From a virus: a DNA stretch of 52,372 bases. The stretch spans positions 1-52,372 of IMG/VR virus record IMGVR_UViG_3300032229_000930; one strand, given 5' to 3'. Shown here one piece after another: positions 181-52,192 of the stretch (positions are counted from its first letter, which is position 1; the number at the start of each line of letters is the position of its first letter). A program made the position numbers and the translations under genes. Under the pieces are notes generated by a model that saw only the letters and a list, made by a program, of their open reading frames with translations, had not been told where the DNA came from and searched no databases.

Positions 181-269
181 GGAGGGGTGGTAGAGCGGTT
201 TATTGCACCGGTCTTGAAAACCGGAGAGGTCACAAGCCTCCGTGGGTTCGAATCCCACCCCCTCCGCCA
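181..269 (+). tRNA. tRNA-Ser(UGA)
   Basis: An 89-nt gene folds as a class II tRNA. The acceptor stem pairs GGAGGGG (181-187) with CCCCTCC (259-265), followed by discriminator G and an encoded CCA (267-269). The anticodon stem CCGGT/ACCGG closes the loop CTTGAAA, giving anticodon TGA, which reads serine UCA codons. A long variable arm and the T-loop TTCGAAT flanked by GTGGG/CCCAC are visible. Its 3' end is the integration target of the genomic island, and the insertion restores the full tRNA 3' end. Confidence 0.97.
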
Positions 270-6734: not shown

Positions 6735-6764
6735 GCGTTCGGGGTGTTTGCTTGGGTTTGGGTG
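6735..6764 (-). promoter_or_regulatory. A/C-rich translation leader without Shine-Dalgarno
   Basis: Immediately upstream of the MuB-like ATG (minus strand) stands AACACCCCGAACGC, preceded by further CCCAAACC-type sequence. The same 14-mer precedes the ATG at 9840 (9841-9854), and a near copy precedes the ATG at 9720. A similar CCAAACCCAAACACCC stretch precedes the capsid ATG at 19098. No purine-rich ribosome site is present. Confidence 0.55.
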
Positions 6765-8660
6765 TTAGAGCAGGTCTTCTGCGCTAAAATTGGTGGTGGC
6801 ATGCGAGGCGGCAGCCATGGCGAAGTCGTCGCCCTCCCCTGACTCTTGGCCGGAGGCATCGAGCAGGCCGGAGGCATCCACTGAGCGGAGCATGCGGACT
6901 CGGGCTCGCTCCTCGGAGGTCACCGGTGCACCGGAGACCACGGAGGCGTTGTGGCGGGCATTGGCGGCCTTGCTCCTGGCCTCCTTGAGGTGGCGGGTGC
7001 GGAAGGGAGCAAGGGCCTCGGCCTCTGCCTTGGCAGCCCGTCCGCATGCCTCCTGCACGGCGGTGATATCGGCGCGATCGACGGAGGTGATGCGCGGGCA
7101 GGCGGCGACGAAGCGTCCCTTGGCATCGAAGGCCCAGATGGTGTCCGGAGCGTAGGGGTTGAGGATCGTCGAGTACCGCTCCCCATCGGAGAGGAGGCGT
7201 GCATCGTAGCGGAGCACATCACCCGAGATCGCCCCGTCGCGGGTCTCGATCATCCCCCGGCGGACCGAGCGCTCCTCACCCATGTCGGGGAGCAGGATGG
7301 AGGCGATCGCCTGGGGGCGGAGACGAGTTAGCTGACGTGCACCTGGACGGAAGATCTCATTGGGCGACTTGCGGCGCATTCCGCCTCTGCGGAGATCGGG
7401 CACATAGTGCATGTCCCAGCCTTCGAGGTCATGGTCGGTGCGGTCATTGATGCGCTGATAGATCTCGGAGGCGATCGCCTGGAACTGCTGGATCGAGAGG
7501 AGCGGCCAGCGGAGCATCTCGACACGCTCGGGGGGGAGGTAGGCGATCGCTTTGAGCAGGGCATCGTTGCTTTTGAGCAGGCCGTCGAGTTGCTCGGGGC
7601 GGTGATCGACATCCTTGCCGGTCTGGCCGGGGAGAGCGGCCATCTCGTTGTGGATGAGATTGCCGAGGGTTTCCAGAGCGGCCTTGAAGCGGAAGTTACC
7701 CTTCGCACGTCCCGCATACTGGTGGGCGGCGGCGGCGGCTCCCTCCATGCCGGAGCGTGCGACCGTGATCAGCCCACCCGATTCATCCCGGAGGAATGCC
7801 TCGAGATCCGAGCGGATCGCGGCGGTGCCATGCTCGACCACGAGTGTGGTTCCCTGGGCAGAGTATCCGAAGTTGCCCAGGACATGAGCGAGGAGGAAGC
7901 GCATGTCGGCCTCCTTGAGACCATCCATGATGCCATCCTCGCGCTCCGTGCGGACACGCATTCCCCAGGCGAACTTGTTGGCGCTGTAAAGATCGAGCGC
8001 GTGGAACTCCAGAGGACGGCCGCTCTTACGCTGATCGAGGTGGTTGACGAAGTGATCGTGCCACATGTCATCGAAGAGGTAGTGGGATCCGACCCAGAGG
8101 TTGGCACGGGTCGTGTAGACCAGCTGCCGCTCACTTGCAGCGGCGCTGCGGCCGATGCGGGCATTCTTGAGCTCGAAGCGTGTGGGGATATGGCGGGTCA
8201 GATTGCGCTCGGTCCAGCCGTAGGGGAACCCGGTCTCCGGAGAGATGGCGGTTGAGGTCGTAACGAGACCCTTGACCCAGTCACCACGGAGAGAGCGGAT
8301 CGCGGCGGCGCTGGAGCGCTGGTAGCGCTCGCAGTAATTCTTGAGCAGCTCCTTGTCGGCGGCAGAGAGAGTGGTGGAGGTATCAGCGCGGCGATTCCAG
8401 GCCGATGGACCGCAGTAGCGGCGGTCGATGAGGGCACCCCACCCCGACTTCTTGACTGCGTAGAACTTCTTGCGAATCGTCCCCTCGCTCTGGGAAATCG
8501 AGCGTGAGAGATTGGTGATGGCCGAGGAGACGCCGCGTTCCAGTTCCAGAAGTGGCTCCAAGTGGGTGCGCCAGAAGTTGAACTCCTCGCGGGCACGGGC
8601 CGGGAGCGTTGCCAGATCCGAGGGGCGTAGTTCTGGGGAGTTGAGAAGTGCGGTGGTCAT
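6765..8660 (-). CDS. MuA-like DDE transposase
   Basis: The enzyme of replicative transposition and phage integration. The 631-residue length is close to MuA (663). An N-terminal DNA-binding region with HTH-like helices (about 45-165) precedes an RNase H-like catalytic core. Candidate acidic residues are D197/D198 in 'HYLFDDMWHDHF', E276 in 'TTLVVEHGTAAI' (MuA has Asp here) and E330 in 'GNFRFKAALETL'. The C-terminal part contains the beta-barrel-like region and an Ala-rich basic tail. It is inferred to recognise the AGGTTTGGGAGA end sites. The second acidic residue being Glu is a point to check against homologues. Confidence 0.88.
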   Translation of the reverse strand: MTTALLNSPELRPSDLATLPARAREEFNFWRTHLEPLLELERGVSSAITNLSRSISQSEGTIRKKFYAVKKSGWGALIDRRYCGPSAWNRRADTSTTLSAADKELLKNYCERYQRSSAAAIRSLRGDWVKGLVTTSTAISPETGFPYGWTERNLTRHIPTRFELKNARIGRSAAASERQLVYTTRANLWVGSHYLFDDMWHDHFVNHLDQRKSGRPLEFHALDLYSANKFAWGMRVRTEREDGIMDGLKEADMRFLLAHVLGNFGYSAQGTTLVVEHGTAAIRSDLEAFLRDESGGLITVARSGMEGAAAAAHQYAGRAKGNFRFKAALETLGNLIHNEMAALPGQTGKDVDHRPEQLDGLLKSNDALLKAIAYLPPERVEMLRWPLLSIQQFQAIASEIYQRINDRTDHDLEGWDMHYVPDLRRGGMRRKSPNEIFRPGARQLTRLRPQAIASILLPDMGEERSVRRGMIETRDGAISGDVLRYDARLLSDGERYSTILNPYAPDTIWAFDAKGRFVAACPRITSVDRADITAVQEACGRAAKAEAEALAPFRTRHLKEARSKAANARHNASVVSGAPVTSEERARVRMLRSVDASGLLDASGQESGEGDDFAMAAASHATTNFSAEDLL

Positions 8661-36472: not shown

Positions 36473-36697
36473 AGACCCGCATAAATACTAGGGTCAGCAT
36501 TTTGATGAGTGGTCAAAAAGGGGCCTTTTTGGGCCAAGTGTCCCTAAAAGTGTCCCTCCTTGGTGGTTGTTGGGGACTGCTAGAACCAACTCCGGCACTA
36601 GGCGACGACTACTCGCATCTTGCTCCCGGTTGGGTGTCAGGGCATGGGAAATTCCGGTCACGCTGCTCTGCACAACCCGGAGGAAAACACCCCCACC
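36473..36697 (+). promoter_or_regulatory. Island integrase upstream region with arm-type repeats
   Basis: This stretch holds a compact hairpin caaaaagg-gg-cctttttg (36514-36531) and a 22-bp sequence at 36538-36559 containing two direct AGTGTCCCT units. The whole 22-bp sequence recurs at 52053-52074 near attR. The interpretation is integrase arm-type binding sites and possibly integrase autoregulation. A ggagg motif lies about 14 bases before the integrase ATG. Confidence 0.65.
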
Positions 36698-37780
36698 ATG
36701 CAGGCACGATATCGGCTCTACCGCCGGTCCAACCGCTCCCACGGTACCTACTACGCCCAGGACAGCACCACCGGCGCTCGCGAAAGCCTTGGCACGAAGA
36801 ACAAGGCCGAGGCCCAAAAACTCCTCCAGGCCAAGAATGACGCGCAGATTCAGCCCGTCCTCAGCCGCGAGCTGGCCAAAGTCTACCTCCACACCCAGGA
36901 CCCCGACTTTGCCACCCGCACCTGGTTCGATGTGGCCCGCCTCATCGACAACTCCTATGACGGCAATACCAAGACCCGCTTCCAGAAGTTCCTGAAGAGC
37001 CAGCCCGTTCGTCGCCTGATGTCTAGGAGACTCATCGAGACCTCAGCCTCGGATTTCCTCAGCGTCTTCTCACACCCGCGAGCCGGGGTCTCCACCAACG
37101 TCCAGCTCCGCATCCTTCACAACCGGGCCCTCGACCTTGAGTGGATCCTCAAGCCCGTCCTCTCCCGGCGAGCTTGGCCCAAGATCCGCTACGCCTCCCG
37201 CCATGGCATCACCCGCGAGCAGCATGAGGCCGTCCTGCGGGTCACACCCAATAAAGAATACCGCATTTACTTCGAGCTCCTCTGGCACACCGGCGGCAGC
37301 CAGACCGACATCGCGAGCCTCACCGCCGAAAACATCGACTGGGGCACCCGCAGGCTCTACTACGAGCGACAGAAACTCCGTTCCAAGGGCATGGGGCACG
37401 CCTGCCTCGTCATCGGAAAGGCCCTCGAAGCCATCCTCCTCCAGCTCCCCAAGGAAGGTCCCCTCTTCCCCAACCTCGGCACCCTCAAGGAAAGCAAACG
37501 CAGCAACTATTTCTGGACCAAGCGGGTCAAGGCTGGCCTGCCCGACGGTATCGTCCTCCACTCTTACCGCTACGCCTGGGCAGAGCGTGCCCAGTCGGCA
37601 GGGATGCCCGAGCGCGAGGCCATGGCCCACCTCGGTCATGGGAGCAAAGCCGTCCACCGTGCCTACGCGAGGTCCGCCGACCGCGTCACCATGCCCCTTG
37701 AGTACTACGAGGAACAGGCCTCTAAGAAGTTCATCGACCTCAGCGCCGAACTAGCCAAGAAGCACCATGCTGTCGCTTGA
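36698..37780 (+). CDS. int: Island tyrosine recombinase/integrase
   Basis: 360 residues from ATG 36698. The N-terminal arm- and core-binding domains (1-170) precede the catalytic domain. HxxR is present as H288-SY-R291 ('VLHSYRYAWAERA'), the second box as 'HLGHGS' (311-316) and the nucleophile is Y323 in 'HRAYAR'. At the place of the first catalytic Arg ('TG.R..E') the sequence reads 'WHTGGSQTDIASLT', so this Arg is replaced by Ser201. Similar 'HTG.SQ.D...L' proteins occur in PVC bacteria, to my recollection. It presumably catalyses integration at tRNA-Ser. The long frame from TTG 36620 is not needed. Confidence 0.88.
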   Translation: MQARYRLYRRSNRSHGTYYAQDSTTGARESLGTKNKAEAQKLLQAKNDAQIQPVLSRELAKVYLHTQDPDFATRTWFDVARLIDNSYDGNTKTRFQKFLKSQPVRRLMSRRLIETSASDFLSVFSHPRAGVSTNVQLRILHNRALDLEWILKPVLSRRAWPKIRYASRHGITREQHEAVLRVTPNKEYRIYFELLWHTGGSQTDIASLTAENIDWGTRRLYYERQKLRSKGMGHACLVIGKALEAILLQLPKEGPLFPNLGTLKESKRSNYFWTKRVKAGLPDGIVLHSYRYAWAERAQSAGMPEREAMAHLGHGSKAVHRAYARSADRVTMPLEYYEEQASKKFIDLSAELAKKHHAVA

Positions 37781-38475: not shown

Positions 38476-38790
38476 TTAGGTGCGGATTCCTAGGCAATTT
38501 ATCTTTTCAGTGAGATTGCGCCAATCTGGAATATGCGCTCGAAGAAGGCTGTAAAATACCCGGCTATGATTGGGATGCTTCAAATGAAGAAGTTCGTGAA
38601 TGATGATGTAGTCTTGAAGGCGGTGCGGCAGTTCAAGCACATCCCGAGCAAAGCAAATTCTGCCCTTATCAGAGCAGGAGGCCCACTTACGTTTCATCTC
38701 CATGATGACTATCTGTTTCGGTGTGGTCCTGAGCTTTTGAGCCCATGCAGAGACGCGCTGTTTGAAATCATTCATACCCCTGAGGATCAC
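38476..38790 (-). CDS. YgjP/DUF45 (M48-like) metallopeptidase
   Basis: About 104 residues from GTG 38790 (or 99 from ATG 38775). 'YIIIHELLHLKHPNHSRVFY' contains the zinc-binding HELLH with a downstream Asn-His, and 'KRKWASCSDKGRICFARD' matches the conserved 'WGSC...G.i..N..L' element of the YgjP family. Usual family length is about 165-230, so this is a short version. Genes of this family frequently follow hsdR in type I operons. The biochemical role is not established; it begins 4 bp after the hsdR stop. Confidence 0.8.
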   Translation of the reverse strand: MILRGMNDFKQRVSAWAQKLRTTPKQIVIMEMKRKWASCSDKGRICFARDVLELPHRLQDYIIIHELLHLKHPNHSRVFYSLLRAHIPDWRNLTEKINCLGIRT

Positions 38791-38794
38791 TCTT

Positions 38795-40819
38795 TCAGGA
38801 CGGTCTAGCCGCCATGACTTTCTCGGCAAGATCGATCATCTGCTTTCCAGAAACAATTTTCAGGAGGACTTTGTAGACTTCTGCCTTTAGTTGCCTCATT
38901 TCATCTGGATTAGCTGCTGCATTTGGAAAGCGGTGGTAGGCATCTTCAATTTCTAAAGCCAATTCTTTGGATTGAGCGTCATCAAATCCTTCGCTTTTGA
39001 GTTCCCAATACACCGCGAAGGGTCCGGCATCTAAGCCGCTTTCTTTGCGTGCTTTTTCTGCGGCAAATCGTTCAGTGACTAAAGATTCAAGTTCCTTGAG
39101 GGCCTTCTCCGTTGTTGTCTGCCTCTCATCTAAAGCCTCCATCACTTTGGCAGCGCGTTCAGAAATTGAAATCAGATGGGGTTCCTGTCCTGCGCCATCT
39201 CCTGTCTTTTGAAGTGATCGAATAAGATTGATGACCTTACCCTCATCTGGCCCCTTCTTTTTGCGGAGAGCATTCAAAGCCTCTTCGTCAAATTCCACCG
39301 GTTTTGTGAGACGGTCTAATCCATGAGCGGCAGCATGGGTTTGAACCAGTTTTGCAGTTTTGTTGGCAAGATCTCCGATGAAGCTCGTCGACTTACCATA
39401 CGCCTCTTTCATCATCGCATAGATGTCAGCCAGAGCGTTGTAATTGCCTATGTCGTTAGATAGATCAGGATCAGGAGAGAGGATCTCGTAGAGGGTCTCA
39501 GTTTCTTTGAAAAGCTCCGTGAACTCCTCTCTGGCCTCTTTTGTAAAGAGTGTTTCATAAAGCAGTTTCTCCAACTGCTCATCCCTCGGCAGACCAGAGG
39601 TTGCACTCAGATACTTTTGAGCTGGCCCATCCATCAACGTACGGAAGCGTTGAAACAACATGTCCAAATCCTCAATAACTCCCGAGTAGTCCTCGGAATC
39701 AAATGAAAGGGCTTTTCTCAAGTCCTTGAGTATTCCGACAAAATCAATGATCAAACCACAGGGCTTTTCAACACCACGGGCATCTTCATAGGGACGGTTA
39801 ACACGAGCGACCGCTTGAAGGAGAACATGATCCCTCATCGGTTTATCGAGATACATGCAGTAGAGGATCGGCGCATCGTATCCCGTTAGGAGTTTATCCG
39901 TAACGATCAGAATCTTTGGTTGGCTGGAGGCCTTGGGAAATTCCTTTCGAACTGCCTTCTCTGCATCATCATCAAGTTGCTGTTTAGCGACAAGCGGGCG
40001 TTCCACCGCATCGTTTGAGTTCTTGGTATAAACGGCCTGCGAGAATTCTGTTGGTAAAAGCTGATCGAGGGCCTCCTTGTATTTAGCGCATGCTTCTCGG
40101 TCCACGGCCACGAGGAAGGCTTTGTAGCCCAAGGGCTCAACATTCTCGCGGAAGTGCCTTGCAACAAAGGCGGCCACTTTCTTGATTCGATCATCCGCTT
40201 TTAAAAAGGTCTTCAGATTGACAGCTCGATCCAAAGCACGATTGAGATCGTCGATATCTGAAACTCCCTCTGTTTCGGCAAGTGAGAGGAATTCCTTTTC
40301 AAGGAGAGCCTCCTCCAAGACTACATCACTCGGTGCTAGACTATGGCGCAGCTTCAGTGTCGTGCGATCCTTGATGGATTCAGAAATCGGATATTTGTCC
40401 AGATAACCATCTGGATCCTGCAACCCAAAGGTCTTGAACGTACCTTCACCACGTTCTGTTTTCGCAATAGGAGTACCTGTAAATCCAATGAAAGTTGCAT
40501 TGGGAAGGCCCCCCATTAGGTAATTCCCAAAGTCACCGCCTGTGGAGCGGTGCGCCTCGTCGATGAGCACAAAGACATCCGAGCGCAGATTAATTTTTGC
40601 GGGCATCCCATCGAACTTGTGAATCATGGAGATGATCAACCCCCTGAAATCCGCCTTCAGTAGCTCTTCGAGTTGAGCGCAGGTATCGGCACGGCGCACC
40701 TGAACGCCTGATTGACTCACCTCTCCAAGAATCCGCTCCACCCATCCGGAGAGCTGTCCTTCAAGTTCGTTTCTATCCACCACTAGGAGGACTGTAGGAG
40801 TAGCACTCTGGGTTTTCAT
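38795..40819 (-). CDS. hsdR: HsdR C-terminal part (helicase domains), split gene
   Basis: 674 residues with the SF2 motor from motif Ia on: 'VLLVVDRNELEGQL', DEAH at 87-90, 'FIGFTGTPIAKTERGEG', and in the second RecA-like domain 'ILIVTDKLLTGYDAPILYCM' and 'LLQAVARVNRPYEDARG'. A helical C-terminal domain for M2S binding follows. It lacks the nuclease and Walker A, which lie in the upstream gene; the ATG here overlaps that gene's TGA. Together they cover one complete type I restriction subunit of about 1020 residues. Confidence 0.9.
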   Translation of the reverse strand: MKTQSATPTVLLVVDRNELEGQLSGWVERILGEVSQSGVQVRRADTCAQLEELLKADFRGLIISMIHKFDGMPAKINLRSDVFVLIDEAHRSTGGDFGNYLMGGLPNATFIGFTGTPIAKTERGEGTFKTFGLQDPDGYLDKYPISESIKDRTTLKLRHSLAPSDVVLEEALLEKEFLSLAETEGVSDIDDLNRALDRAVNLKTFLKADDRIKKVAAFVARHFRENVEPLGYKAFLVAVDREACAKYKEALDQLLPTEFSQAVYTKNSNDAVERPLVAKQQLDDDAEKAVRKEFPKASSQPKILIVTDKLLTGYDAPILYCMYLDKPMRDHVLLQAVARVNRPYEDARGVEKPCGLIIDFVGILKDLRKALSFDSEDYSGVIEDLDMLFQRFRTLMDGPAQKYLSATSGLPRDEQLEKLLYETLFTKEAREEFTELFKETETLYEILSPDPDLSNDIGNYNALADIYAMMKEAYGKSTSFIGDLANKTAKLVQTHAAAHGLDRLTKPVEFDEEALNALRKKKGPDEGKVINLIRSLQKTGDGAGQEPHLISISERAAKVMEALDERQTTTEKALKELESLVTERFAAEKARKESGLDAGPFAVYWELKSEGFDDAQSKELALEIEDAYHRFPNAAANPDEMRQLKAEVYKVLLKIVSGKQMIDLAEKVMAARPS

Positions 40820-41859
40820 ACTTCCTCGGTTGATGGAGCTTTCCCCTCAAGCAAAAGACGGGCAGCAGTGATCATGGTAAAAGTTTTTCCCGAGCCCTGC
40901 GTGTGCCAGACAAGCCCCCTTGTTTTCTCTGGATCAAGACAGCGCTCGACGACCTTGGTGGCTGCACGGGTCTGGTGCTGTCTTAGCACTGTTTTCCTTA
41001 ACTCATCATCCTTCATGAAGAAGACAATCCATTCCTTTAGAAGCATCATGAATCTTCTGCGGTGAAAAAAAGACTTTACCTGCGTTCCATAGGAAGGAGG
41101 TGCTACAGGGCTCTCCGCAGCTAGAGGAAGTTCATCAAGCGGATTATCAGAGTGCAGAGCGCTTGTTGGTGGCGGAATATCTGCGTATCCCATTCCTTTC
41201 ATTTCAGTAAGCTGCTGCCTCCAGTTGAAGACACCTTTTCTTTCGTAGCTCCAGGTAACGCCGTAGAAATATTCAATCAGGTGAGTGATATTGAAAACTT
41301 GCGGTGAGGACATCATTTCCGGTGTCTCCACTTCGTAGCGACGCAGCTGGAGTAATGCTTTCTCCATCGCATTTTTCAGCTTTGGATTTTTGCACTCTAC
41401 CAGTGCCACAGGTATCCCATTGATCAGGAAAACGACATCGGGACGATTGCCTTTTTTCCAATGCTTCCTGAAGGCCCATTCCACTGTGACTTGGAAGACA
41501 TTCCTCCCCGGGTCCAGAGGGTGCTCAAAGTCTATCACTTTGACATTGAGAGAACGCTTTTCAGAAGGAACAAAAACTGTTTTCAAGCCCCTGATCCATT
41601 CTAGCAGATGACGGTTTCCTTCCATGGTAGGAGGAACTGCCTCTATGGAGGCGATCACCGAAGCCACATTGTCAGAGGTGACAACTCCAGGGTTCAACCG
41701 AAGGAGTGCAGCTTCCAGGTGTGGATAGAAGAAGAGTCCTTCTTCACCGCGCCGAAAGGCTAGGGCATCGGTTTCCGAGACAAAATCCCATCCGGCATCC
41801 ACCGCATGGCGCACGAGGGGAAACTGGACGGAAGAAGCTTCAAGGGCGAGGCTGCTCAT
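40816..41859 (-). CDS. hsdR: HsdR N-terminal part (nuclease and Walker A), split gene
   Basis: 347 residues. The PD-(D/E)xK nuclease motif reads D141 ('RPDVVFLINGIPVALVECKN') with E155-C-K157. Walker A HTQGSGKT lies at 319-326. The frame ends 21 residues later at TGA, within ATGA, and the motor continues in the next gene. Intact HsdR proteins have about 25 residues between GKT and the next conserved 'VLLVVDRNEL'; here the combined distance is somewhat longer. It may be a stable split through translational coupling or a recent frameshift. Confidence 0.9.
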   Translation of the reverse strand: MSSLALEASSVQFPLVRHAVDAGWDFVSETDALAFRRGEEGLFFYPHLEAALLRLNPGVVTSDNVASVIASIEAVPPTMEGNRHLLEWIRGLKTVFVPSEKRSLNVKVIDFEHPLDPGRNVFQVTVEWAFRKHWKKGNRPDVVFLINGIPVALVECKNPKLKNAMEKALLQLRRYEVETPEMMSSPQVFNITHLIEYFYGVTWSYERKGVFNWRQQLTEMKGMGYADIPPPTSALHSDNPLDELPLAAESPVAPPSYGTQVKSFFHRRRFMMLLKEWIVFFMKDDELRKTVLRQHQTRAATKVVERCLDPEKTRGLVWHTQGSGKTFTMITAARLLLEGKAPSTEEV

Positions 41860-41925
41860 GACATTTCATTGTTGACGCATTTTAACTTCTGGAGAAGGTT
41901 GTAGTTGGCTCGGCGTCCACCGAAT

Positions 41926-41944
41926 CCTGACGTTATGCGTCAGG
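41926..41944. other. Hairpin between DUF3800 and hsdR genes
   Basis: cctgacg/cgtcagg is a perfect 7-bp stem with a 5-nt loop in the 90-bp gap between the DUF3800 stop and the hsdR start. There is no U-tract on the minus strand, so it may be a processing or attenuation structure that separates the M-S-accessory message from hsdR. Confidence 0.45.
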
Positions 41945-41949
41945 GGTTA

Positions 41950-42801
41950 CTAGGTGACGCGGGGCCCCTTTTTTGTCTTCGTTGAGTCGTGGTGGACATC
42001 GGCAGGGACAAATGCCCAGTGCAGGTAGGGCTCCTGCCACTTGCCAGTAAGCCCCTCCCTCAGACCTGTGCTGATCCCGATATTCAATCTGGGACGGATG
42101 CGTTGGATATGTGTGTAGATGGCCTTGTAGAGCTTTTCCTTGGCGATGGTTCTCTTTCCCCTCCTGCGTTCACCGGGTAGCTTCTCCTTGTGCTTGTCAT
42201 TCAGTCGGAAGCTCATCGAGCCGAGGACAATATCAAGACATTGTGCCAGAACATGATCATGAGAGCGGATCTCCGCGATATCTTCCTCTCTGATCTTGAA
42301 ACCTGCATTGCGGATCCAGGGGTCATTCTGCAGGGCGAGAATAAAGCCCTTAAACTGAGAAGCTCCCTCACGTGTATGGGGGAGCTCATCGAAATGGATG
42401 CGTAGCCAACAAGGAGTGATGCCTCCCTCACGGTGCCTGAATCCGAAGGCATGTTTCAGAAACTGGTAGTAGAGTTTGAAATACCGTTCCTCAAATGAGC
42501 TGCCATCACCGCGACGTGTTTGAGCATTCTGTTGGAACATGATACGAACTCGAACACGCCTTGCCTCGATTTCTTCAAAGAAGGCTTCAATCAATGCCAG
42601 GTATTTATCCAAGTAGCGCTCGGTGACCTTGGACCACTTTACCTCTCCATAGAAATTGAGATCCACTTTCTTCTGCCTGAGCCGATCGGAGACGATATCG
42701 TAGTCGTTTGATCCGATTAGCACGCCTCCATAAAAGTTGGAGAAGAACTCCCCCTTTGCATCGGACTCATCGCAGAAGATGATGTATTCTTTGTGGTTCA
42801 T
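41950..42801 (-). CDS. DUF3800 protein
   Basis: 283 residues. The start 'MNHKEYIIFCDESDAKGEFF' followed by 'SNFYGGVLIGS' is the hallmark of DUF3800: a first strand with an 'D-E-S' acidic pair (D11, E12), predicted RNase H-like. Downstream acidic residues in 'WLRIHFDELP' and 'AEIRSHDHVLAQCLDIVLGS' complete a possible metal site. DUF3800 genes often accompany defence systems; the activity is unproven. It is inserted between the ApeA-like gene and hsdR in the same direction. Confidence 0.85.
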   Translation of the reverse strand: MNHKEYIIFCDESDAKGEFFSNFYGGVLIGSNDYDIVSDRLRQKKVDLNFYGEVKWSKVTERYLDKYLALIEAFFEEIEARRVRVRIMFQQNAQTRRGDGSSFEERYFKLYYQFLKHAFGFRHREGGITPCWLRIHFDELPHTREGASQFKGFILALQNDPWIRNAGFKIREEDIAEIRSHDHVLAQCLDIVLGSMSFRLNDKHKEKLPGERRRGKRTIAKEKLYKAIYTHIQRIRPRLNIGISTGLREGLTGKWQEPYLHWAFVPADVHHDSTKTKKGPRVT

Positions 42802-42828
42802 GCTGGAGCGGCTTTCAGATGACAGAGT

Positions 42829-44229
42829 TTATGACCCCAGATTTACCATGCGGATGCCTTCGGCCTTACGAACAATATGCTCAACCGGTGATCCCCCCAG
42901 GCCAATTTCCTTCAAGAGAATAACCCAAGTCAAAGATTCCAAACACCATGAAAATCGCCCAATTTCCGCGCTGGTGAGCAACCTCTTTTCATCCACGTTT
43001 TCATGATGATGAGTGAGATGATTGCGGGTATAGGCTATTTTTGATGCAGCATTCTCTATATCCCCGATAAGGCGAGGGCTCTCTGCTTTATGTGCTGTAA
43101 AAATATCCAAAAGCTTCTGCTTTAGAGAGCGACTGTTGAGTGAAAGTTTTCCTTTAGCCCAAGGCCAGATCTCATTCGGCAGCACCGCTTCTGCTGCTGC
43201 AACCCGGCTTGCATGTTCATCCTTAGGTAGATCCTTCGATTCAAAGCAAGAGGAACGGGAATGGTAGATTTCAAGCGCCTGAACAAGGAAAAGGAATCGT
43301 GCCTCTAGATAGAGAGAGTGATGGAGGGCCACGGCACTAAACAAGGCGAGCATTGGTTCCAGCTCTGAGCAAACTCGATTCCATTGAACAACCAGTTGAT
43401 CCAACTTATCTTTAACGGTACTGAACGAAGCGATCATCTCATGCGGCAGAGGATCTCGGGATCGGTTTTGTTTGCGCTCCGACTTCCCACTCCGGAGCAG
43501 AAGTCCCTCGCATCCAAACATACTAGACCCCGGTTGATACGGATCTTCAGTGAAAACACGGACCTCAGTCGCATGAACGGAGGTGCCTATCAGCATACCA
43601 AAAAGCCGAATCACCCAGGGAACCCAGTGGCTGGATACCTCTGCCATTGATCGAGGCCCTTCAAAGTGAAAGCACACACTACTCCCATGACGAAATTGAT
43701 CTTCATCCCATGAAGTAGACCTCAAAACACTATCTGAAAATCGGATTTGAACGCCACTCTCTACAAAAAAGGGTAAATCTATCACTTCTACCTGAGAGTA
43801 AGTGGGTTGTTGGTTTTCTGATACACTTGGAATGAGTAAGTTGCGCCCAAACCAGCGGTTCAGTAATTCCAGATTGATTGATACAGCTCGTACAACCGGT
43901 TCGCTCCACGAGTTGATATGCAACCCTTTTACAGCAGCGAGCGCAAAAATCTCCCAATGTTCTAGACCCTGAGAAGAACCATGCTCAGATACACCACATC
44001 CAAAGAGAGTGACCGGACGATTCTCCTCATCTTGTCCATGTATGACCTCAGTAATCTTAAAAGAGTCCCCATTTGCAGATTGAAGTAGGATGTCTTCGAC
44101 TCCTTTTTCACATGGGGACCAAATCGAAAGCTTGGGAGAGCCGGCGCCGACATCCAGGGTTCCTGGAAGAGGTTGCCCCTCTGCTCCATGAATCCACCAT
44201 CGACCTCGAATGGAATCCTGACTTCTCAT
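42829..44229 (-). CDS. ApeA-like abortive-infection protein with HEPN domain
   Basis: 466 residues. The N-terminal 300 residues show the ApeA-N layout, starting 'GRWWIHGAEGQPLPGTLDVG', beta-rich, with 'EHWEIFALAAVKGLHINSWS'. The C-terminal 170 residues are helical and hold the HEPN ribonuclease signature 'RNHLTHH' (R402, H407), preceded by 'ARFLFLVQALEIYHSRSS'. ApeA is a known single-gene anti-phage factor thought to cleave RNA. The start overlaps the hsdS stop by ATGA, so it is co-translated with the type I system, which is an unusual setting. Confidence 0.8.
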   Translation of the reverse strand: MRSQDSIRGRWWIHGAEGQPLPGTLDVGAGSPKLSIWSPCEKGVEDILLQSANGDSFKITEVIHGQDEENRPVTLFGCGVSEHGSSQGLEHWEIFALAAVKGLHINSWSEPVVRAVSINLELLNRWFGRNLLIPSVSENQQPTYSQVEVIDLPFFVESGVQIRFSDSVLRSTSWDEDQFRHGSSVCFHFEGPRSMAEVSSHWVPWVIRLFGMLIGTSVHATEVRVFTEDPYQPGSSMFGCEGLLLRSGKSERKQNRSRDPLPHEMIASFSTVKDKLDQLVVQWNRVCSELEPMLALFSAVALHHSLYLEARFLFLVQALEIYHSRSSCFESKDLPKDEHASRVAAAEAVLPNEIWPWAKGKLSLNSRSLKQKLLDIFTAHKAESPRLIGDIENAASKIAYTRNHLTHHHENVDEKRLLTSAEIGRFSWCLESLTWVILLKEIGLGGSPVEHIVRKAEGIRMVNLGS

Positions 44230-45407
44230 GCCAATGTTTCCCTCAAAAAAGAATCAACCCGCCTCTTGCCGCTTATCAGATCGTGAAGCAGTGATTGAAA
44301 AAGTTCGCGGAGGAGCTTCTGACGCGCTTCGTGGTAAGAGAGCTTCGCGTCGATTGTTTGGAGGATAGAAGCGATTTCTTGCTGTTCATCCAGACAGGGT
44401 AGCAACACCGGAAACGCTTTGAGCTTGGTAGAATTAATGCAGGCTAAATTGGTTGTCTTGTGTGCAACCGATAGGAAATATGATTTTCCGTAAGGACTCT
44501 GGGCAAGGTAGGCAAAGTAACGAGGCAAAAGCTTCAACTGGTCAGTTCGAACGGCAAAAATATGGTTCTGGTGAACACATCGTTCAATCTGCCCCTCCCA
44601 TATAAAACCTCGGCCCAGCTTGTCGAAATCCCCCCCCTCCGTCAGAACCACATCGCCCTCTTGTAAAAGACTCGATTCTATATCCCTCCTAGAAGCTTTT
44701 ATGGTTTTAATTTCACGAAGGTCTAAGTGCCCATCTTGTACGTTTGCTACTCTCAAATAAGGCACTTCAACATCATCAACAGACTGTTTCCTCGTATTCT
44801 TGGCTATGCCTGTTTGTACAAATGCGCATTCGTTGAGGGCCATTTCTTCCCAGGAAACCGGTACTACTCCAAAACGAGTTTCTCGCGGGGCAGTACCATG
44901 AAGCCCCCTACTGAAAAGGTGGTGGAAGGCAGCTTTCTTCAGCTCCCGCGTAACCTTGATAATCTCGGATTCAACTTCAACAGCTTTCCAAGCATTTCTC
45001 AAAACATCTGCTATCTGATTCTGCTCTCCAATTTCTGGAATCCTAACTGGTACCGAATAGGCCGTTTCTCGGTTTAATCCCGGAACCACGGCATGACCAT
45101 TCATCTGCTCCAGTCCTAACGAGAGAAGCAAAAAGTGAAGAAAATCCCAATTATGATTGGCTTTGTTGACCACATAGTAGGTGGTATCAATCGGCCAATA
45201 CGATTTCTCGGTGAAGTTCACCGCGCCAACAGAACCTTTGCGTCCAATAATTATACCTGGTCCGTCTAGGAGGCTTTCATTGTGCCAACCTACAATTCCA
45301 TTGGACCCGTAGACTGGGACTTCACCAGAAGTACGTGCTGATTGGGGTAGACTCTTGCCGTAAGCAAGCTCAATTTCTTCACCCAGAATACTCTCTCTCC
45401 AGCTCAT
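44226..45407 (-). CDS. hsdS: Type I restriction specificity subunit HsdS
   Basis: 393 residues with two target recognition domains. TRD1 begins '[20 protein letters not shown]' and ends in the first conserved helix '[20 protein letters not shown]'. TRD2 begins '[20 protein letters not shown]' and ends '[20 protein letters not shown]', followed by '[13 protein letters not shown]'. The repeated helical spacers set the gap in the bipartite DNA target. ATGA overlaps join it to hsdM upstream and the ApeA-like gene downstream. Confidence 0.95.
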
Positions 45408-47254
45408 TGTGTTACAATATGATTAAGAGCTATGGAAAGTGCCTCATCAAGCTGCCGAGCCCTCATATCAAGAGATTTTAAATCGGAGATGATGATCTCC
45501 ATCTCGCGATCTATTCTTTCAATCTCAGCAGCCACATAGCGACTTGGGCTAAGGTTATAATCCTCGGCAACAGCAACCTCTGTTGTAATAACCTTCACAA
45601 ACCCTGGTAGATCTTTAGCAGAATGATAGGCCTCAGCTATTTTTGAAATCGCCTCATCTGGAAGATAGTTTTTAGGTGACCTCTTCTTCGCTTCGCCAGA
45701 GGCATTCACTAGGGTGATTTTGCCAATGCGATCCTTGGGTTTCCCCTTCCGCAAGAAAACGATCACCCCAGGAGCTGTGGTATTGTAGAAAAGATTGTCA
45801 GGCATCAGGACAACACCATCAATCAAATCCTGCTCCACGAACCATTTGCGAATTGCACGCTCTTTATCCTCGTTCTGGCTACCTGAACCACGAGATACGG
45901 CACCAGTATCGAGTATGACAGCAGCGCGGCCTCCCTCTGCCAGACTTGCGGCAGTATGTTGTAACCATGCCCAATCACCCTTGCCTGTGGTCGTCCCTCC
46001 CTGACGCTCGAAGCGGTCGAATCCATCGTTTTCAAAGACCTCGGTTTCGAAGCCTTGATTCCACATCGGGTTGGCTACGATGAGAGGAAATTTCTGAAGC
46101 GTTCCATCCAGAGAGCGGAACTTCGGATTCTTCATAGAATCCCCGCGGACTATTTCCGCCTGAAGGTCATGAATGATCGTATTCATCCATGCGATGGCAT
46201 AGCTGGGGGCTTGGAGTTCCTGACCAAAGAGCTTCAGAGGAACCTTCTTCGCCGCTGGATCGATCCTCTCGGCGACGAGCTGTAGCTTGATCAGAAGTCC
46301 AGCTGATCCGCACGCATAGTCATAGGCCAACTCCCCCGGACGAGGGCGCAAGATCTCCGCCATGAGAAATCCTACTTCGGTTGGTGTAAAAAACTCACCC
46401 GCACTTTGCCCGGAGCCCTCAGCAAACTTTCGGAGGAGGTATTCATAGCACCGGCCAAGAAAATCAGGCTCCACATCACGCAATCCAAGGCGGTATCGAG
46501 GATCCGAGAGGGCCTCAATAATGCCCTTCAGGGCTGCATCGCTGATTTCACGTTCTCCGCCAGCCCCTACATGGTTGAAGTCCACCTGATCAATGATGCC
46601 CATGAGTTGTTGATTCTGTCGGGCAATCATGCGGCAGGCCGTGGTTACATGCTCACCGAGTGTCGTGGGTTTTTTGCCTTCCGGCCACTCGAAGGGAAGA
46701 CGACCAGCAAGAACAGGCCAACGAGCTTCGGGAGGAAGATAAAAACGAACAACACGATCCTTAGCTGCCACCCCTTGCTCAACTTCACCCTCAATAATCG
46801 AGAGAGCCGTCTCTGCTTCACCGTAGGTTTCCGTGAGGCGGGCAACCTCGTCATCGAAGACATCGGAGAGGCGCTTGATGAATAAGAGCGGTAGGATGTA
46901 GTCCTTGAACTTCGGCGCATCCTTTTCACCGCGGATGGCGCAAGCCGCATCCCAGAGCATCTGCTCCATAGGCTTGGTGCCAAGAACCTTACTCGAAGCG
47001 GTCCCTCTCCTTCTTCGACTGCTTGAGACGGTTGCAACTTCAGATGGCGTTTTCGAGCCTTCTCCTGCAACAAAGCCGTTTTCCTCCATCAGTTTTTCGA
47101 TGGCCTGCATCTGCGCTCTTTGAGGCTTGGACTTCCCTCCTTCCCAACGGTTCACGGTTGCAAAAGATACATTGAGCCTGGCCGCAAGCTCCTCTTGGGA
47201 AAGCTGTAGATGACTACGGAGGCGCGAAAGGTCTGAAGATATGTGGGAAGGCAT
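45404..47254 (-). CDS. hsdM: Type I methyltransferase HsdM with N-terminal Xre-type HTH
   Basis: 616 residues from ATG 47254. The start is chosen because AAAGGA (47261-47266) lies 6 bases before it; ATG 47260 is the alternative. Residues about 5-60 are an HTH ('[20 protein letters not shown]', '[17 protein letters not shown]'), not part of usual HsdM (about 500 residues). The rest is HsdM: N-terminal helical domain ('[20 protein letters not shown]'), '[17 protein letters not shown]', SAM motif '[15 protein letters not shown]' and catalytic motif '[14 protein letters not shown]', where NPMW replaces NPP[FY]. It could autoregulate and control the divergent CBASS genes. Confidence 0.93.
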
Positions 47255-47290
47255 TGACATTCCTTTATGTATGATATAGCAAATCAATCA
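47255..47290. promoter_or_regulatory. Shared start region of divergent hsdM and capV
   Basis: The hsdM Shine-Dalgarno (minus strand, 47261-47266) touches the first capV ATG (47267). If capV instead starts at 47291, 36 bp separate the two genes. Either way each promoter must lie in the other's 5' coding part; TATATC/TATCAT-like elements occur at 47270-47279. The HTH on HsdM is a candidate regulator. Confidence 0.5.
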
Positions 47291-48238
47291 ATGCAAGATC
47301 GATTTCAAATTTTATCACTGGATGGTGGAGGAATCAAAGGCCTCTTCTCGGCCTACTTATTACAAAAATTGGAGGAAGACCTCCAAATCGATATTGCCTC
47401 TTGTTTTGACCTAATCATAGGAACTTCAACAGGTGGGATAATTGCACTTGCGCTCGGTATGCAGAAGACTCCCGCTCAGATTGTGGATTTATACAGCGAT
47501 CTAGGAACCAGCATTTTCCCAGGTCCGAGATGGCTCGGTGAGTTGAGGCAATATCTAGCGGTTCGCTACAGTTCCAAACCTTTGGAAAATGAACTCAAAA
47601 AATGTTTCCCAGAAGAGCAGCTTCTTGGGCACTCCAAAAAGAGACTTGTCATTCCCAGCTATGATCTTGGCCGAAGGGAGGTGCGCGTATTCAAAACTGC
47701 GCACGATGAAAGATTCACTCGTGACTACAAAGTGCCAGCCTGGCAGATCGCAATGGCAACTAGTGCCGCTCCTACATATTTCCAAGCATTTCGATCAATC
47801 GAAGAGAGGCGTTTAATAGATGGCGGCGTCTGGGCAAACAATCCGGTTATTGCAGGCATTGTCGAAGCTGTTGGTGTTCTGAAAATACCGCTCCCGTCAG
47901 TTCGTGTTCTGAGCATAGGTACTACAGCAGAAGTTACGTACCCACCCGACAAATTGGATCGTGGAGGGTTTTGGCAGTGGAAAAAAGGTGCTGCGGTAAT
48001 TATGGATGCACAATCTTCGGGCGCCACCGGCCAGGCATATCTCTTGCTTGGAAAAGATCGCTTCAAGCGAATCAACCTATCAGTGCCAAAGGACTTGTTC
48101 GCCCTTGATAAACCAGCCCCTGAGAAGCTACGTGCAGCAGCCAGCCATGTCTCGATGCATGAAGCGCCAGACATTAAGAGAATTTTTCTTGATCACGCAG
48201 CTCAGCCCTTCACCCCAAAACACCAACTAGAAAAATGA
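47267..48238 (+). CDS. capV: CBASS effector CapV, patatin-like phospholipase
   Basis: 323 residues (or 315 from ATG 47291). Patatin motifs: oxyanion loop 'DGGGIKG' (19-25), nucleophile S54 in '[14 protein letters not shown]', and catalytic Asp185 in '[11 protein letters not shown]'. When activated by a cyclic nucleotide, CapV enzymes degrade membrane phospholipids and kill the infected cell. It is the first gene of a rightward operon; its stop overlaps the start of the CD-NTase. A+T content is higher than in the phage. Confidence 0.93.
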
Positions 48239-49443
48239 ACCCAATTCAATCCATTGCCCCCAGACCTTCAAATCCCATATCCAGAAAGAAGTATGTTGGA
48301 GGCTTATTGGAGCTTGCCTGTAGAGATATTGAACTCCCGAAATCGAGATTTGATGCAGCTAAAATCGCGTATGAATCAGTGGGAGAACACCTCAGTGATT
48401 CAACAAAAATAAAAGGATTTGAGCCGCGGATTTTCCCACAGGGGTCTATGTCACTTGGCACAACCGTTAAACCTCTCGATAGGGAAGAATTTGATGTGGA
48501 TTTGATATGCCATCTTCAGCGTTTGAAAAACACTGAATCCCAGGCCGCAGTAAAGACCCTTGTTGGAAAGTGTTTGGAAGAGTACGAAAAGAAGTTTGGA
48601 CCCAGCCTGACAGAACACAAGAGGTGCTGGAGGCTCAACTATGCCGAAGCAAGCCGCTTGCATCTCGATATTACACCTGCCGTACACAATCTAGAATGCC
48701 TGAACAAAGGGCTTGCAGTCCCCGATAAAGATAAAAGGAGATGGGAGCCAACACACCCAGAGGGATATGTAAATTGGTTTGAGCGTAAAGCAGCTCTATC
48801 AGTGAGAATTGGAAGCCAGCAGTTTGCCGCCAAGGAGGCTCTAGCTGTAGATCCTTTGCCGGAGAATGAAAGATTTAAGGGCATCTTGAAAAGATCTGTG
48901 CAACTTCTGAAAAGACACCGAAGTATTATGTTTCAAGGGAATGCTGATTTGGCTCCAATTTCCGTTATCATCACAACCCTTGCCGCTAAATCCTATGAGC
49001 GGATTTGTATTACCGGGCAGAACTTTGATTCTGAATTCGATGTTCTTTTCGCAATAATCAGCGGGCTTCCTCAATTTGTAGAACGCCGGATGATAAATGA
49101 ACGCTCGTTTGAATATTGGGTTCCGAACGAAACAACAGCAGGTGAAAATTTTGCGGAGAAATGGAACAATAATTTTGCATTGTATCAAGCCTTCGATGGT
49201 TGGCAGAAAAAGGCACTTCAAGACTTTGGCGCACTTGCTGAGTCTGAAGATGCACCGAAAACCTTCCACATGCTTGAAGCATGTACAGGCAATACAACAA
49301 GCAGGGTAGTACAGAGTCTGGTAACAGAGCGAATTTCTAGGAACAGAGTTGGAAATCTCCTGCGTACCAGCAGCCTTGGAACAATAAACCTCGCAGCGGG
49401 TGGTTCAGTTAAAGCTAATACCTTTTTTGGCAACCAGGAATAA
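48235..49443 (+). CDS. CBASS CD-NTase (cGAS/DncV-like nucleotidyltransferase)
   Basis: 402 residues. The active site is visible: 'IFPQGSMSLGTTVKPLDREE' with G70-S71, then D87 and D89 in 'EFDVDLICHL', and the third acid D145 in 'LHLDITPAV'. The helical C-terminal domain follows ('IVITTLAAKSY'-like segment near 'SVIITTLAAKSYERI'). On phage sensing it makes a cyclic oligonucleotide that activates CapV. The C-terminus ends 'TFFGNQE', not in a bare glycine, which matters because the neighbouring E2-like protein may conjugate the cyclase. Confidence 0.93.
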   Translation: MNPIQSIAPRPSNPISRKKYVGGLLELACRDIELPKSRFDAAKIAYESVGEHLSDSTKIKGFEPRIFPQGSMSLGTTVKPLDREEFDVDLICHLQRLKNTESQAAVKTLVGKCLEEYEKKFGPSLTEHKRCWRLNYAEASRLHLDITPAVHNLECLNKGLAVPDKDKRRWEPTHPEGYVNWFERKAALSVRIGSQQFAAKEALAVDPLPENERFKGILKRSVQLLKRHRSIMFQGNADLAPISVIITTLAAKSYERICITGQNFDSEFDVLFAIISGLPQFVERRMINERSFEYWVPNETTAGENFAEKWNNNFALYQAFDGWQKKALQDFGALAESEDAPKTFHMLEACTGNTTSRVVQSLVTERISRNRVGNLLRTSSLGTINLAAGGSVKANTFFGNQE

Positions 49444-50348: not shown

Positions 50349-50395
50349 ATACTACCTTTAAGTAGTATCTTGCGCATACTACTTTGGAGTGGTAG
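50349..50395. promoter_or_regulatory. Paired hipB operators
   Basis: ATACTAC-N6-GTAGTAT is perfect at 50349-50368, and ATACTAC-N6-GTGGTAG at 50376-50395 is an imperfect copy with the same spacing. Centres are 27 bp apart. They lie directly before hipB, as expected for cooperative autorepression by HipB/HipAB. Confidence 0.75.
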
Positions 50396-50403
50396 AAGAG
50401 ATC

Positions 50404-50685
50404 ATGCATCAGAACTATCCGGTATCCACGCCGATCCAACTTTCTCAGACCCTCAAGGCGCTGAGACATGCTGCTGGATTGAGTCAGGAGGCAGCAGGTC
50501 AGCTGCTGGGGGTGAACCAGAAGCGCCTCGCTAGGATTGAAGCAGCTCCAGAGCGGACGAGTTTTGAGCAGATTTCCCGGCTTGTTACGGCATTGGGTGG
50601 ACGACTGGAGGTGAGTCTAGCCTCTTCGATGCCTGCCAAGCAGTCTGCGGCGAAGGGTTCTCAGAAGGCATCTTCAACCTGGTAG
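50404..50685 (+). CDS. hipB: HipB-like antitoxin (Xre HTH)
   Basis: 93 residues from ATG 50404. A GTG at 50389 is in frame but overlaps operator 2, so the ATG is preferred. The HTH reads 'LSQTLKALRHAAGLSQEAAG', 'QLLGVNQKRLARIEAAPERT', followed by 'FEQISRLVTALGGRLEVSLA' and a Ser/Lys tail ending in Trp, as in HipB where the tail is flexible. It represses the operon and neutralises HipA. Confidence 0.9.
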   Translation: MHQNYPVSTPIQLSQTLKALRHAAGLSQEAAGQLLGVNQKRLARIEAAPERTSFEQISRLVTALGGRLEVSLASSMPAKQSAAKGSQKASSTW

Positions 50686-50693
50686 GACTCGCC

Positions 50694-52019
50694 GTGGCCA
50701 CCAAATCGCTCAGATCTCAGCTGGTTATCTGGATGAATGGCATCCGGGTGGGTGTCTGGAGTCCTCCGGTTTCCAATGCATCGAGTTTACAATATGACCC
50801 GGCTTGGATTGAGTCACCGGAGAGGAGGGTTCTGTCGCTCTCTCTTCCCTTCACGCCGGGCAATATTCCCCTGCGTGGAAAGATGGTTACGGATTTCTTC
50901 GACAATCTGCTACCGGACACGGAAGAGATCCGCAGAAGGATCATGACTCGTTACGGGACGCGCTCGACGAAGCCATTTGATCTGCTCGCAGCCATAGGCA
51001 GGGAATGCGTGGGTGCAATCCAGTTGCTGCCGGAGAGTGCGACGCCGGAGGGCTTTGATCGGATTGAGGGAGAGGTGCTGGATGAGAAGGGTGTGGAGCA
51101 GGCACTCAATGCGGCTATCTCGGGGAGCCCACTCATGGCCATGGATCAGGAGGACGAGTTCAGGATCTCGATTGCCGGAGCTCAGGAGAAAACGGCGTTT
51201 CTTTTTCATCAGGGGCGCTGGTGGCGTCCCTCTGGATCTACGCCGACGACCCATATTTTCAAACTACCGCTGGGCCTGATCGGAAATCTCCAAGTGGATA
51301 TGCAGGGATCCGTGGAGAACGAGTGGATCAGCTCGCGCATCATGAATGCCTTTGGGCTCAAGACGGCGCAGTGCGAGATTCTGCGCTTCGGAGACAGGAA
51401 GGTGCTTTCGGTGGAGCGATTCGATCGCGCGTTGATGGATGGATCGTGGATCGCCCGTCTTCCTCAGGAGGATTTCTGTCAGGCTCTCGGAGTTCCGGTC
51501 ACGCAGAAATACGAAAACCAAGGGGGCCCTGGCATTGCGAAGATCTTGGGTATTCTCAACGCAAGCTCGACCTCCGTGGAGGACAAGAGGGCCTTTGTGA
51601 AAGCCCAGATCGTTTTCTGGCTGATGGCTGCCACGGATGGACACGCCAAGAACTTCTCCATCTTCCACGAGAGGGGAGACACCTACCGATTAACCCCATT
51701 CTATGATGTGCTCTCCATGTGGCCGGTCATTGGGCATGGCTCAGGGCTGCTTGACCTCAGAAGGGCCACCATGGCCATGGGGTTAAAGGGGAAGAGTCTG
51801 CATCGAAAGATTCAGGAGATTCGTCCTTACCACTGGGACGAGGCTGCGCGGCTTGCCGGACTGGTCAAAGCCTCCGACTTAATCGAGGAAATCATTGAGC
51901 AAGTTCCCGGTGTTCTGGAACATGTGGATCGAGAAACCCCGCCGGACTTTCCCGGAAAAATCCGAGATGCGATCTTTGAGGGAATTCGCAATCAGACGGA
52001 AAAACTGAAGACTGCATGA
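50694..52019 (+). CDS. hipA: HipA toxin Ser/Thr kinase
   Basis: 441 residues from GTG 50694, 8 bp after hipB; usual HipA length is about 440. The N-terminal subdomain ('LPFTPGNIPLRGKMVTDFFD', 'NLLPDTEEIRRR') is intact. The ATP loop region 'RISIAGAQEKTAFLFHQG' and the catalytic 'ATDGHAKNFSIF' (D315, K319, N320) with metal-binding D338 in 'PFYDVLSM' are present. HipA kinases phosphorylate targets such as glutamyl-tRNA synthetase to halt translation. It is the last island gene and may stabilise the island. Confidence 0.94.
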   Translation: MATKSLRSQLVIWMNGIRVGVWSPPVSNASSLQYDPAWIESPERRVLSLSLPFTPGNIPLRGKMVTDFFDNLLPDTEEIRRRIMTRYGTRSTKPFDLLAAIGRECVGAIQLLPESATPEGFDRIEGEVLDEKGVEQALNAAISGSPLMAMDQEDEFRISIAGAQEKTAFLFHQGRWWRPSGSTPTTHIFKLPLGLIGNLQVDMQGSVENEWISSRIMNAFGLKTAQCEILRFGDRKVLSVERFDRALMDGSWIARLPQEDFCQALGVPVTQKYENQGGPGIAKILGILNASSTSVEDKRAFVKAQIVFWLMAATDGHAKNFSIFHERGDTYRLTPFYDVLSMWPVIGHGSGLLDLRRATMAMGLKGKSLHRKIQEIRPYHWDEAARLAGLVKASDLIEEIIEQVPGVLEHVDRETPPDFPGKIRDAIFEGIRNQTEKLKTA

Positions 52020-52170: not shown

Positions 52171-52192
52171 CGAATCCCACCCCCTCCGCCAT
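52171..52192 (+). repeat. attR core of the genomic island
   Basis: Perfect 22-bp copy of 249-270 (3' end of tRNA-Ser). The sequence to its left does not form a T-stem with it, so this copy is not a functional tRNA. It marks the right border; host sequence resumes at 52193. Confidence 0.93.

Follow-up and report, generated by a model that had tools for sequence, protein, structure and literature searches.

Two candidate auxiliary defence modules in the hsdS-hsdR junction of a type I restriction-modification operon in a prophage-like element

INTRODUCTION

Restriction-modification (R-M) operons are already known as carriers of back-up RNases, as in EcoprrI, where the anticodon nuclease PrrC is encoded within a type Ic hsd operon. 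For proteins containing DUF3800, RNA motifs were reportedly described in a paper in NAR in 2017. A review of 2013 predicted back-up RNases of R-M operons for many HEPN families, naming ApeA among the genes inside such operons in epsilonproteobacteria and proposing, by analogy to PrrC, a guard mechanism for 16 HEPN clades (PMC3710099). An RNase H fold has already been given for DUF3800 at CRISPR-linked loci (PMC10910872, PMC12669027).

Here we describe a type I R-M operon with an ApeA-like gene and a DUF3800 gene between hsdS and hsdR. It lies within a viral record of 52,372 nucleotides (IMG/VR IMGVR_UViG_3300032229_000930), the whole of which was analysed and is called the window.

RESULTS

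Organization of the operon

Open reading frame calling in the window gives a single run of genes on the minus strand in the order hsdM-hsdS-[ApeA-like]-[DUF3800]-hsdR-ygjP (Table 1). There are ATGA overlaps at the hsdM/hsdS and hsdS/apeA junctions, with 27 bp between apeA and the DUF3800 gene and 90 bp between the latter and hsdR. The N6_Mtase, HsdM_N and Methylase_S domains, the last with two target-recognition stretches, are present as a type I R-M system requires. The fusion of an XRE domain to HsdM is shared with loci L222-L226 and L228, and may autoregulate the divergent hsdM/capV region.

Table 1. Features of the operon and its surroundings, in window coordinates
Feature	Position	Strand	Content and evidence
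tRNA-Ser match	1-24 and 181-269		short match to part of tRNA-Ser (cggtttattgcaccggtcttgaa)
22-bp exact repeat	249-270 and 52171-52192		3' end of tRNA-Ser(TGA)
Integration genes	5544-8660 (minus) and 36620-37780 (plus)		TniB/MuB-like ATPase beside possible MuA-like gene (without Pfam hit), plus tyrosine integrase
ygjP / SprT-like metallopeptidase	38476-38829	minus	operon end; YgjP-like E 2.3e-29 (Pfam)
hsdR part 2	38795-40819	minus, other frame	remainder of SNF2 motor, with C-terminus; SWI2_SNF2 E 3.8e-36 (Pfam)
hsdR part 1	40816-41859	minus	nuclease domain and Walker A; HSDR_N E 9.2e-23 (Pfam); alignment to intact HsdRs
DUF3800-VIII small RNA (Rfam RF03075)	41905-41968	plus	cmscan, covariation, strand and promoter test
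DUF3800	41950-42801	minus	283 aa; PF12686
ApeA-like	42829-44229	minus	466 aa; HEPN_Apea PF18739 and ApeA_NTD1 PF18862
hsdS	44226-45407	minus	specificity subunit, two target-recognition stretches; Methylase_S E 3.4e-23 (Pfam)
hsdM	45404-47287	minus	type I N6-adenine methyltransferase with N-terminal XRE helix-turn-helix fusion; N6_Mtase E 6.5e-79, HsdM_N E 2.3e-21, HTH_3 E 1.2e-7 (Pfam)
CBASS pair	47267-49443	plus	patatin-like CapV phospholipase, CD-NTase
hipBA	50389-52019	plus	hipB-like and hipA genes

A sequence-only reading of the window had placed an ApeA-like gene overlapping hsdS by ATGA and a DUF3800 gene next, both ahead of hsdR, and open reading frames and Pfam domains agree with this. 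The gene order stands, but that reading missed that hsdR is split and that the gap before it contains a DUF3800-VIII RNA. It had named independent promoters as evidence that would count against it; a consensus scan of the operon and its flanks placed two promoter-like sites, upstream of hsdM and beyond the end of ygjP, and none between the operon genes, although with 7.9 sites expected by chance such a scan is weak evidence. The genes would form one transcription unit, probably read from upstream of hsdM.

The break in hsdR lies between Walker A and the remainder of the motor, in a variable loop, and alignment with four intact HsdR proteins indicates that both halves are complete. The frame break may equally be a real mutation or an error of sequencing. 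The window copy lacks the intact hsdR required of a type I R-M system, while hsdR is unbroken in relatives with 49-56% identity, and the frameshift weakens any claim that the R-M system works.

The ApeA-like protein

The protein comprises a beta-rich ApeA_NTD1 domain followed by a C-terminal HEPN domain, which is the architecture of ApeA. Both ApeA_NTD1 (E 1e-17; 65.0 bits, cut-off 25.5) and HEPN_Apea (E 3.4e-18; 66.8 bits, cut-off 24.4) are above the Pfam cut-off, and PADLOC gives matches to PDC-S58 (2.5e-37) and Cas13-ApeA (6.6e-24). The HEPN Rx4H motif is intact as R402-N403-H404-L405-T406-H407, in agreement with the Rx4-6H pattern. E320, R402, N403 and H407 are invariant across 13 relatives; a 13-row ApeA alignment was too diverse to serve as a search query. 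These features suggest that the protein is a catalytically active HEPN RNase. Because it is just ~20% identical to the sampled ApeA proteins, its activity and ligand may differ from theirs.

The structural model has a pLDDT of 64. Residues 8-103 give weak split-barrel matches (PilZ, tail-tube and flavin-reductase-like proteins; Z up to 9), to which we attach no weight, and the fold search of this low-confidence model gave no HEPN match among those listed. A sequence search of the PDB with the ApeA-like and DUF3800 proteins gave no usable relative. Membership of the PrrC family was considered and rejected, as the ABC-ATPase is absent and Pfam finds ApeA_NTD1 and HEPN_Apea alone. The title of a 2026 preprint on ApeA reportedly names deoxydinucleotides as its activator, and DNA-breakdown products are thus a plausible trigger.

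The DUF3800 protein and its small RNA

The second inserted gene encodes a protein with PF12686 at E 3.9e-7 (31.3 bits, cut-off 21) and a PADLOC match to PDC-M04A at 4.1e-20. Its AlphaFold2 model (pLDDT 91.4) confidently adopts an RNase HII-like fold. Among solved structures RNase HII matches it best, with a Foldseek E of 1.2e-4 and a VIA Z of 10.2 across 183 residues. The earlier expectation of an RNase H-fold protein and a HEPN RNase-type protein together within a type I R-M operon is borne out by this match and by the Pfam domains. A putative acidic set, D11-E12-D138-D190, is invariant in 58 sequences. In RNase HII, too, the first strand starts with Asp-Glu, and we infer that D11, E12, D138 and D190 are the catalytic residues.

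Convergent to this gene lies the DUF3800-VIII RNA, whose 3' end and T-run overlap the final DUF3800 codons. It scores 42.1 bits with the Rfam model in cmscan (gathering score 40.2, E 3.6e-5), and 61.3 bits with a purpose-built model made from 17 copies. The RNA was found in 92 of the 94 sources that carry DUF3800, in nearly every case immediately 3' of the gene on the opposite strand; in the two exceptions the DUF3800 gene is decayed (L062) or the contig ends (L077). Since a structured RNA accompanies this subfamily so regularly, the cargo of the operon is best described as ApeA plus a protein-RNA module.

The pairing is well supported. Double changes occur at 16 of the 17 base pairs, and 91.7% of cells form a pair against 73.9% in shuffles (none of 500 reaches 91.7%) and at most 51% in slid controls; this alignment was fitted to the structure, and the initial MAFFT alignment already contained 13 covarying pairs of 17. 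On the strand of the RNA, G-U pairs outnumber A-C pairs by 211 to 42. Predicted promoters upstream of the RNA score 9.2 of 12 compared with 7.5 in shuffles, and the TTGACA/TATAAT consensus is perfect in L010, L012 and L034. The G-U excess and the upstream consensus promoters together indicate an RNA with its own promoter, transcribed convergently to DUF3800. In the window the promoter is poor overall, with a good -35 (TTGACG) and no good -10.

Two known types of RNA partnership were rejected. An RNA-guided nuclease of the OMEGA/TnpB kind has its RNA on the strand of the nuclease gene, overlapping the 3' end of that gene, and does not fit an RNA on the opposite strand, as placed by the pair counts and promoters above. 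A type III toxin-antitoxin system has tandem repeats 5' of the toxin, whereas here there is a single RNA, which in almost every source lies 3' of the gene and is convergent with it.

Linkage of ApeA and DUF3800 to R-M genes

The neighbourhood survey comprised ApeA loci (42 genomic, 8 viral), DUF3800 loci (80 genomic, 19 viral) and, for the window R-M system, 8 viral relatives. Across all of these the order hsdM-hsdS-apeA-DUF3800-hsdR occurs in the window alone, so that the sequence-only reading is not supported as regards a conserved five-gene order; taken singly, however, each gene type is linked to R-M above chance. Six genome groups, each defined by a chosen centre taxon, contained HEPN_Apea above the cut-off in 3/388 (Verrucomicrobiota), 6/349 (Pseudomonadota), 8/199 (Planctomycetota), 11/296 (Bacteroidota), 9/244 (Cyanobacteriota) and 4/249 (a Bacillota group) genomes. 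Single-protein scans of viral and genome contigs with ApeA gave no match, the search patterns being too specific for this to indicate absence, and PF18739 had no match in 41 genomes of DUF3800 loci or in the controls, a result that therefore carries no information.

ApeA is linked to R-M genes on the same strand in 4 of the 42 neighbourhoods. The orders are hsdM-hsdS-ApeA-membrane protein-AbiH-Schlafen-hsdR (L093), hsdR-hsdM-Fic-hsdS-ApeA-YhcG (L094), hsdM-hsdS-hsdR-ygjP-RexA-like-RexB-like-ApeA (L216) and a type IIG R-M gene followed by ApeA (L213); in L150 hsd genes are near ApeA on the other strand. The R-M system of L216 is the closest relative of that of the window in the genome sample (HsdM 50%, HsdR 45%). 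Its segment 8138-17000 presents the window's R-M subtype with ygjP, a protein in the RexA position (PDC-M67A), a RexB-like protein and ApeA.

DUF3800 adjoins R-M genes at 8 of the 80 loci (L008, L011, L017, L020, L062, L065, L071 and L075), L017 being a DISARM-like methyltransferase locus. ApeA and DUF3800 occur together in none of the R-M-linked loci listed here. L020 (103-9914) reads hsdR-hsdM-DUF3800-TIR protein-unknown-hsdS, another R-M operon with several effectors, and in L071 (2174-5089) an HsdM that ends in a GIY-YIG nuclease domain is upstream of hsdS, DUF3800 and hsdR.

With an hsdR density of ~0.33 per Mb, 0.38 loci with a confident hsdR beside DUF3800 are expected and 7 were seen; beside ApeA 0.20 are expected and 4 were seen (including L150 and excluding L213). 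Clustering in defence islands inflates both enrichments, and part of each is therefore non-specific.

Insertion at the hsdS-hsdR junction and repeated recruitment

In all 8 IMG/VR relatives of the window HsdR (49-56%) hsdS overlaps hsdR with nothing between, and in four plasmid operons hsdS overlaps or abuts hsdR. Because relatives join hsdS straight to hsdR, we regard the ApeA-DUF3800 pair as an insertion in this junction. The ygjP gene also follows hsdR in L186, L187, L216, L222, L225 and L226.

On the ApeA tree the R-M label, which 5 rows bear, requires 5 changes, of which at least 4 are forced, and on the DUF3800 tree 7 changes for 8 proteins; neither is better than shuffles, and both are quick trees with long branches. 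As linkage to R-M exceeds chance and the linked forms are scattered on the trees, recruitment has been repeated. R-M-linked ApeAs retain ApeA_NTD1 as do the stand-alone forms, and R-M-linked DUF3800s retain the same small RNA as their stand-alone counterparts. Most members of both families have no R-M partner, and their positions vary. All of this makes the modules look self-contained.

This bears on the closest alternative, in which a complex of HsdM, HsdS and HsdR silences ApeA in the manner of PrrC, and a phage anti-restriction protein or failed restriction releases it, so that abortive infection backs up restriction. The review of 2013 proposes such a guard for the HEPN genes that R-M operons carry, apeA among them, and ApeA directly follows hsdS in the window, L093 and L094, with its start overlapping or nearly so. 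But no R-M-specific ApeA clade emerges from the tree, ApeA varies in position elsewhere, coming two genes beyond ygjP in L216 and following a type IIG enzyme in L213, most ApeAs lack an R-M partner, and the PrrC-type ABC-ATPase is missing. The sequence-only reading had likewise suggested that failure of restriction triggers abortive infection; the lack of R-M clades, with domains and RNA the same as in stand-alone forms, counts against a trigger built around such failure. We consider a guard of this kind rather unlikely, and prefer layered, co-transcribed and independently triggered modules because the modules look self-contained.

The element enclosing the operon

The exact repeat of the tRNA-Ser(TGA) 3' end brackets almost the whole window, and its two copies are likely attL and attR of an element of ~52 kb. 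This repeat, the tyrosine integrase and the phage genes within the window mark it as a prophage-like element enclosing the operon, the CBASS pair and hipBA. A search of viral contigs gave no relatives of the integrase. The two CBASS genes are divergent from hsdM, with hardly any sequence in between, and hipBA is near the right attachment-like repeat. The TniB/MuB-like ATPase with its possible MuA-like neighbour and the tyrosine integrase make two integration systems in one element, perhaps a Mu-like prophage inside another element. The tRNA-Ser fragment that opens the window is possibly the remnant of another insertion.

The G+C content of the defence segment is ~0.48, compared with ~0.59 in the phage part. 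This would suit passive cargo, in which mobile genes have piled up as in a defence island, here within an R-M operon to which they have no functional tie, and the broken hsdR marks a decaying operon. The gene order unique in the survey, the frameshift and the usual stand-alone occurrence of both modules are also in keeping with this. Set against it, the genes are on the same strand with an ATGA overlap, reading frames and active-site motifs are intact, and R-M operons have been entered repeatedly by each gene type. We think it improbable that the cargo is merely passive.

DISCUSSION

We propose, with a probability of about 0.5, that a prophage-like element carries a type I R-M operon of ordinary subtype to which two auxiliary defence modules, each self-contained, have been added as further layers. 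The backbone would consist of the XRE-HsdM fusion, HsdS, HsdR and YgjP, with both modules recruited to the hsdS-hsdR junction. The first would be the ApeA HEPN RNase, probably held off by its own N-terminal domain until an infection signal arrives, whereupon RNA would be cut and growth would stop. The second would be the RNase HII-fold DUF3800 protein and its obligate RNA partner, which is read convergently from the opposite side; the pair probably works as a nuclease that is either a ribonucleoprotein or under the control of the RNA. Joint transcription, starting upstream of hsdM, would add shut-down at the RNA level to DNA restriction as layers of a single transferable unit. ApeA is more likely to be triggered by a signal of its own than by the failure of restriction. 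Counting against layered modules is that this exact combination was seen once, which could be chance assembly.

A bolder form of the proposal is held tentatively, as possible but on the less likely side. This is a three-tier operon of type I restriction, signal-gated ApeA and an RNase HII-fold DUF3800 protein that acts with its own convergent small RNA as a ribonucleoprotein effector; restriction operons would take up this effector again and again. If true, it would be a previously undescribed class of RNA-protein effector plugged into R-M systems. It is very doubtful that successful restriction arms ApeA, with DNA fragments from restriction and exonucleases raising a sensed dinucleotide signal and DUF3800 with its RNA processing or clearing such nucleic acid: the title of the ApeA preprint and the invariant RNase HII-like acidic set point that way, but type I restriction would have to produce dinucleotides and DUF3800 to act on them, hsdR is frameshifted, and the split-barrel match of the ApeA N-terminal domain is weak.

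Comparison with known systems

Layered modules on an R-M operon can be set beside four described systems. As in PrrC-EcoprrI, the gene for a HEPN-type RNase sits between hsdS and hsdR of a type I R-M system; the window differs in that its ApeA has another N-terminal domain and no ABC-ATPase, and in the presence of a second nuclease module. The type I R-M systems with YgjP/SprT (L186, L187, L222, L225 and L226) have the same hsdM-hsdS-hsdR-ygjP backbone, but without cargo between hsdS and hsdR and with hsdR intact, the opposite of the window on both counts. The two-domain architecture and Rx4H motif are common to the window protein and ApeA, which is known as a stand-alone phage-defence protein, whereas the window ApeA is ~20% identical and lies between hsdS and the DUF3800-RNA module. 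Lastly, the window has the same subfamily of DUF3800 (PF12686) and the same adjacent, convergent RNA as the DUF3800/DUF3800-VIII (RF03075) pairs described, yet its copy is in a type I R-M operon beside ApeA and the promoter of its RNA is weak. What matters here is that one and the same slot contains two unrelated modules, and that the DUF3800 and DUF3800-VIII RNA pair enters type I R-M operons repeatedly; an orphan Rfam family and DUF3800 thereby gain a setting in defence.
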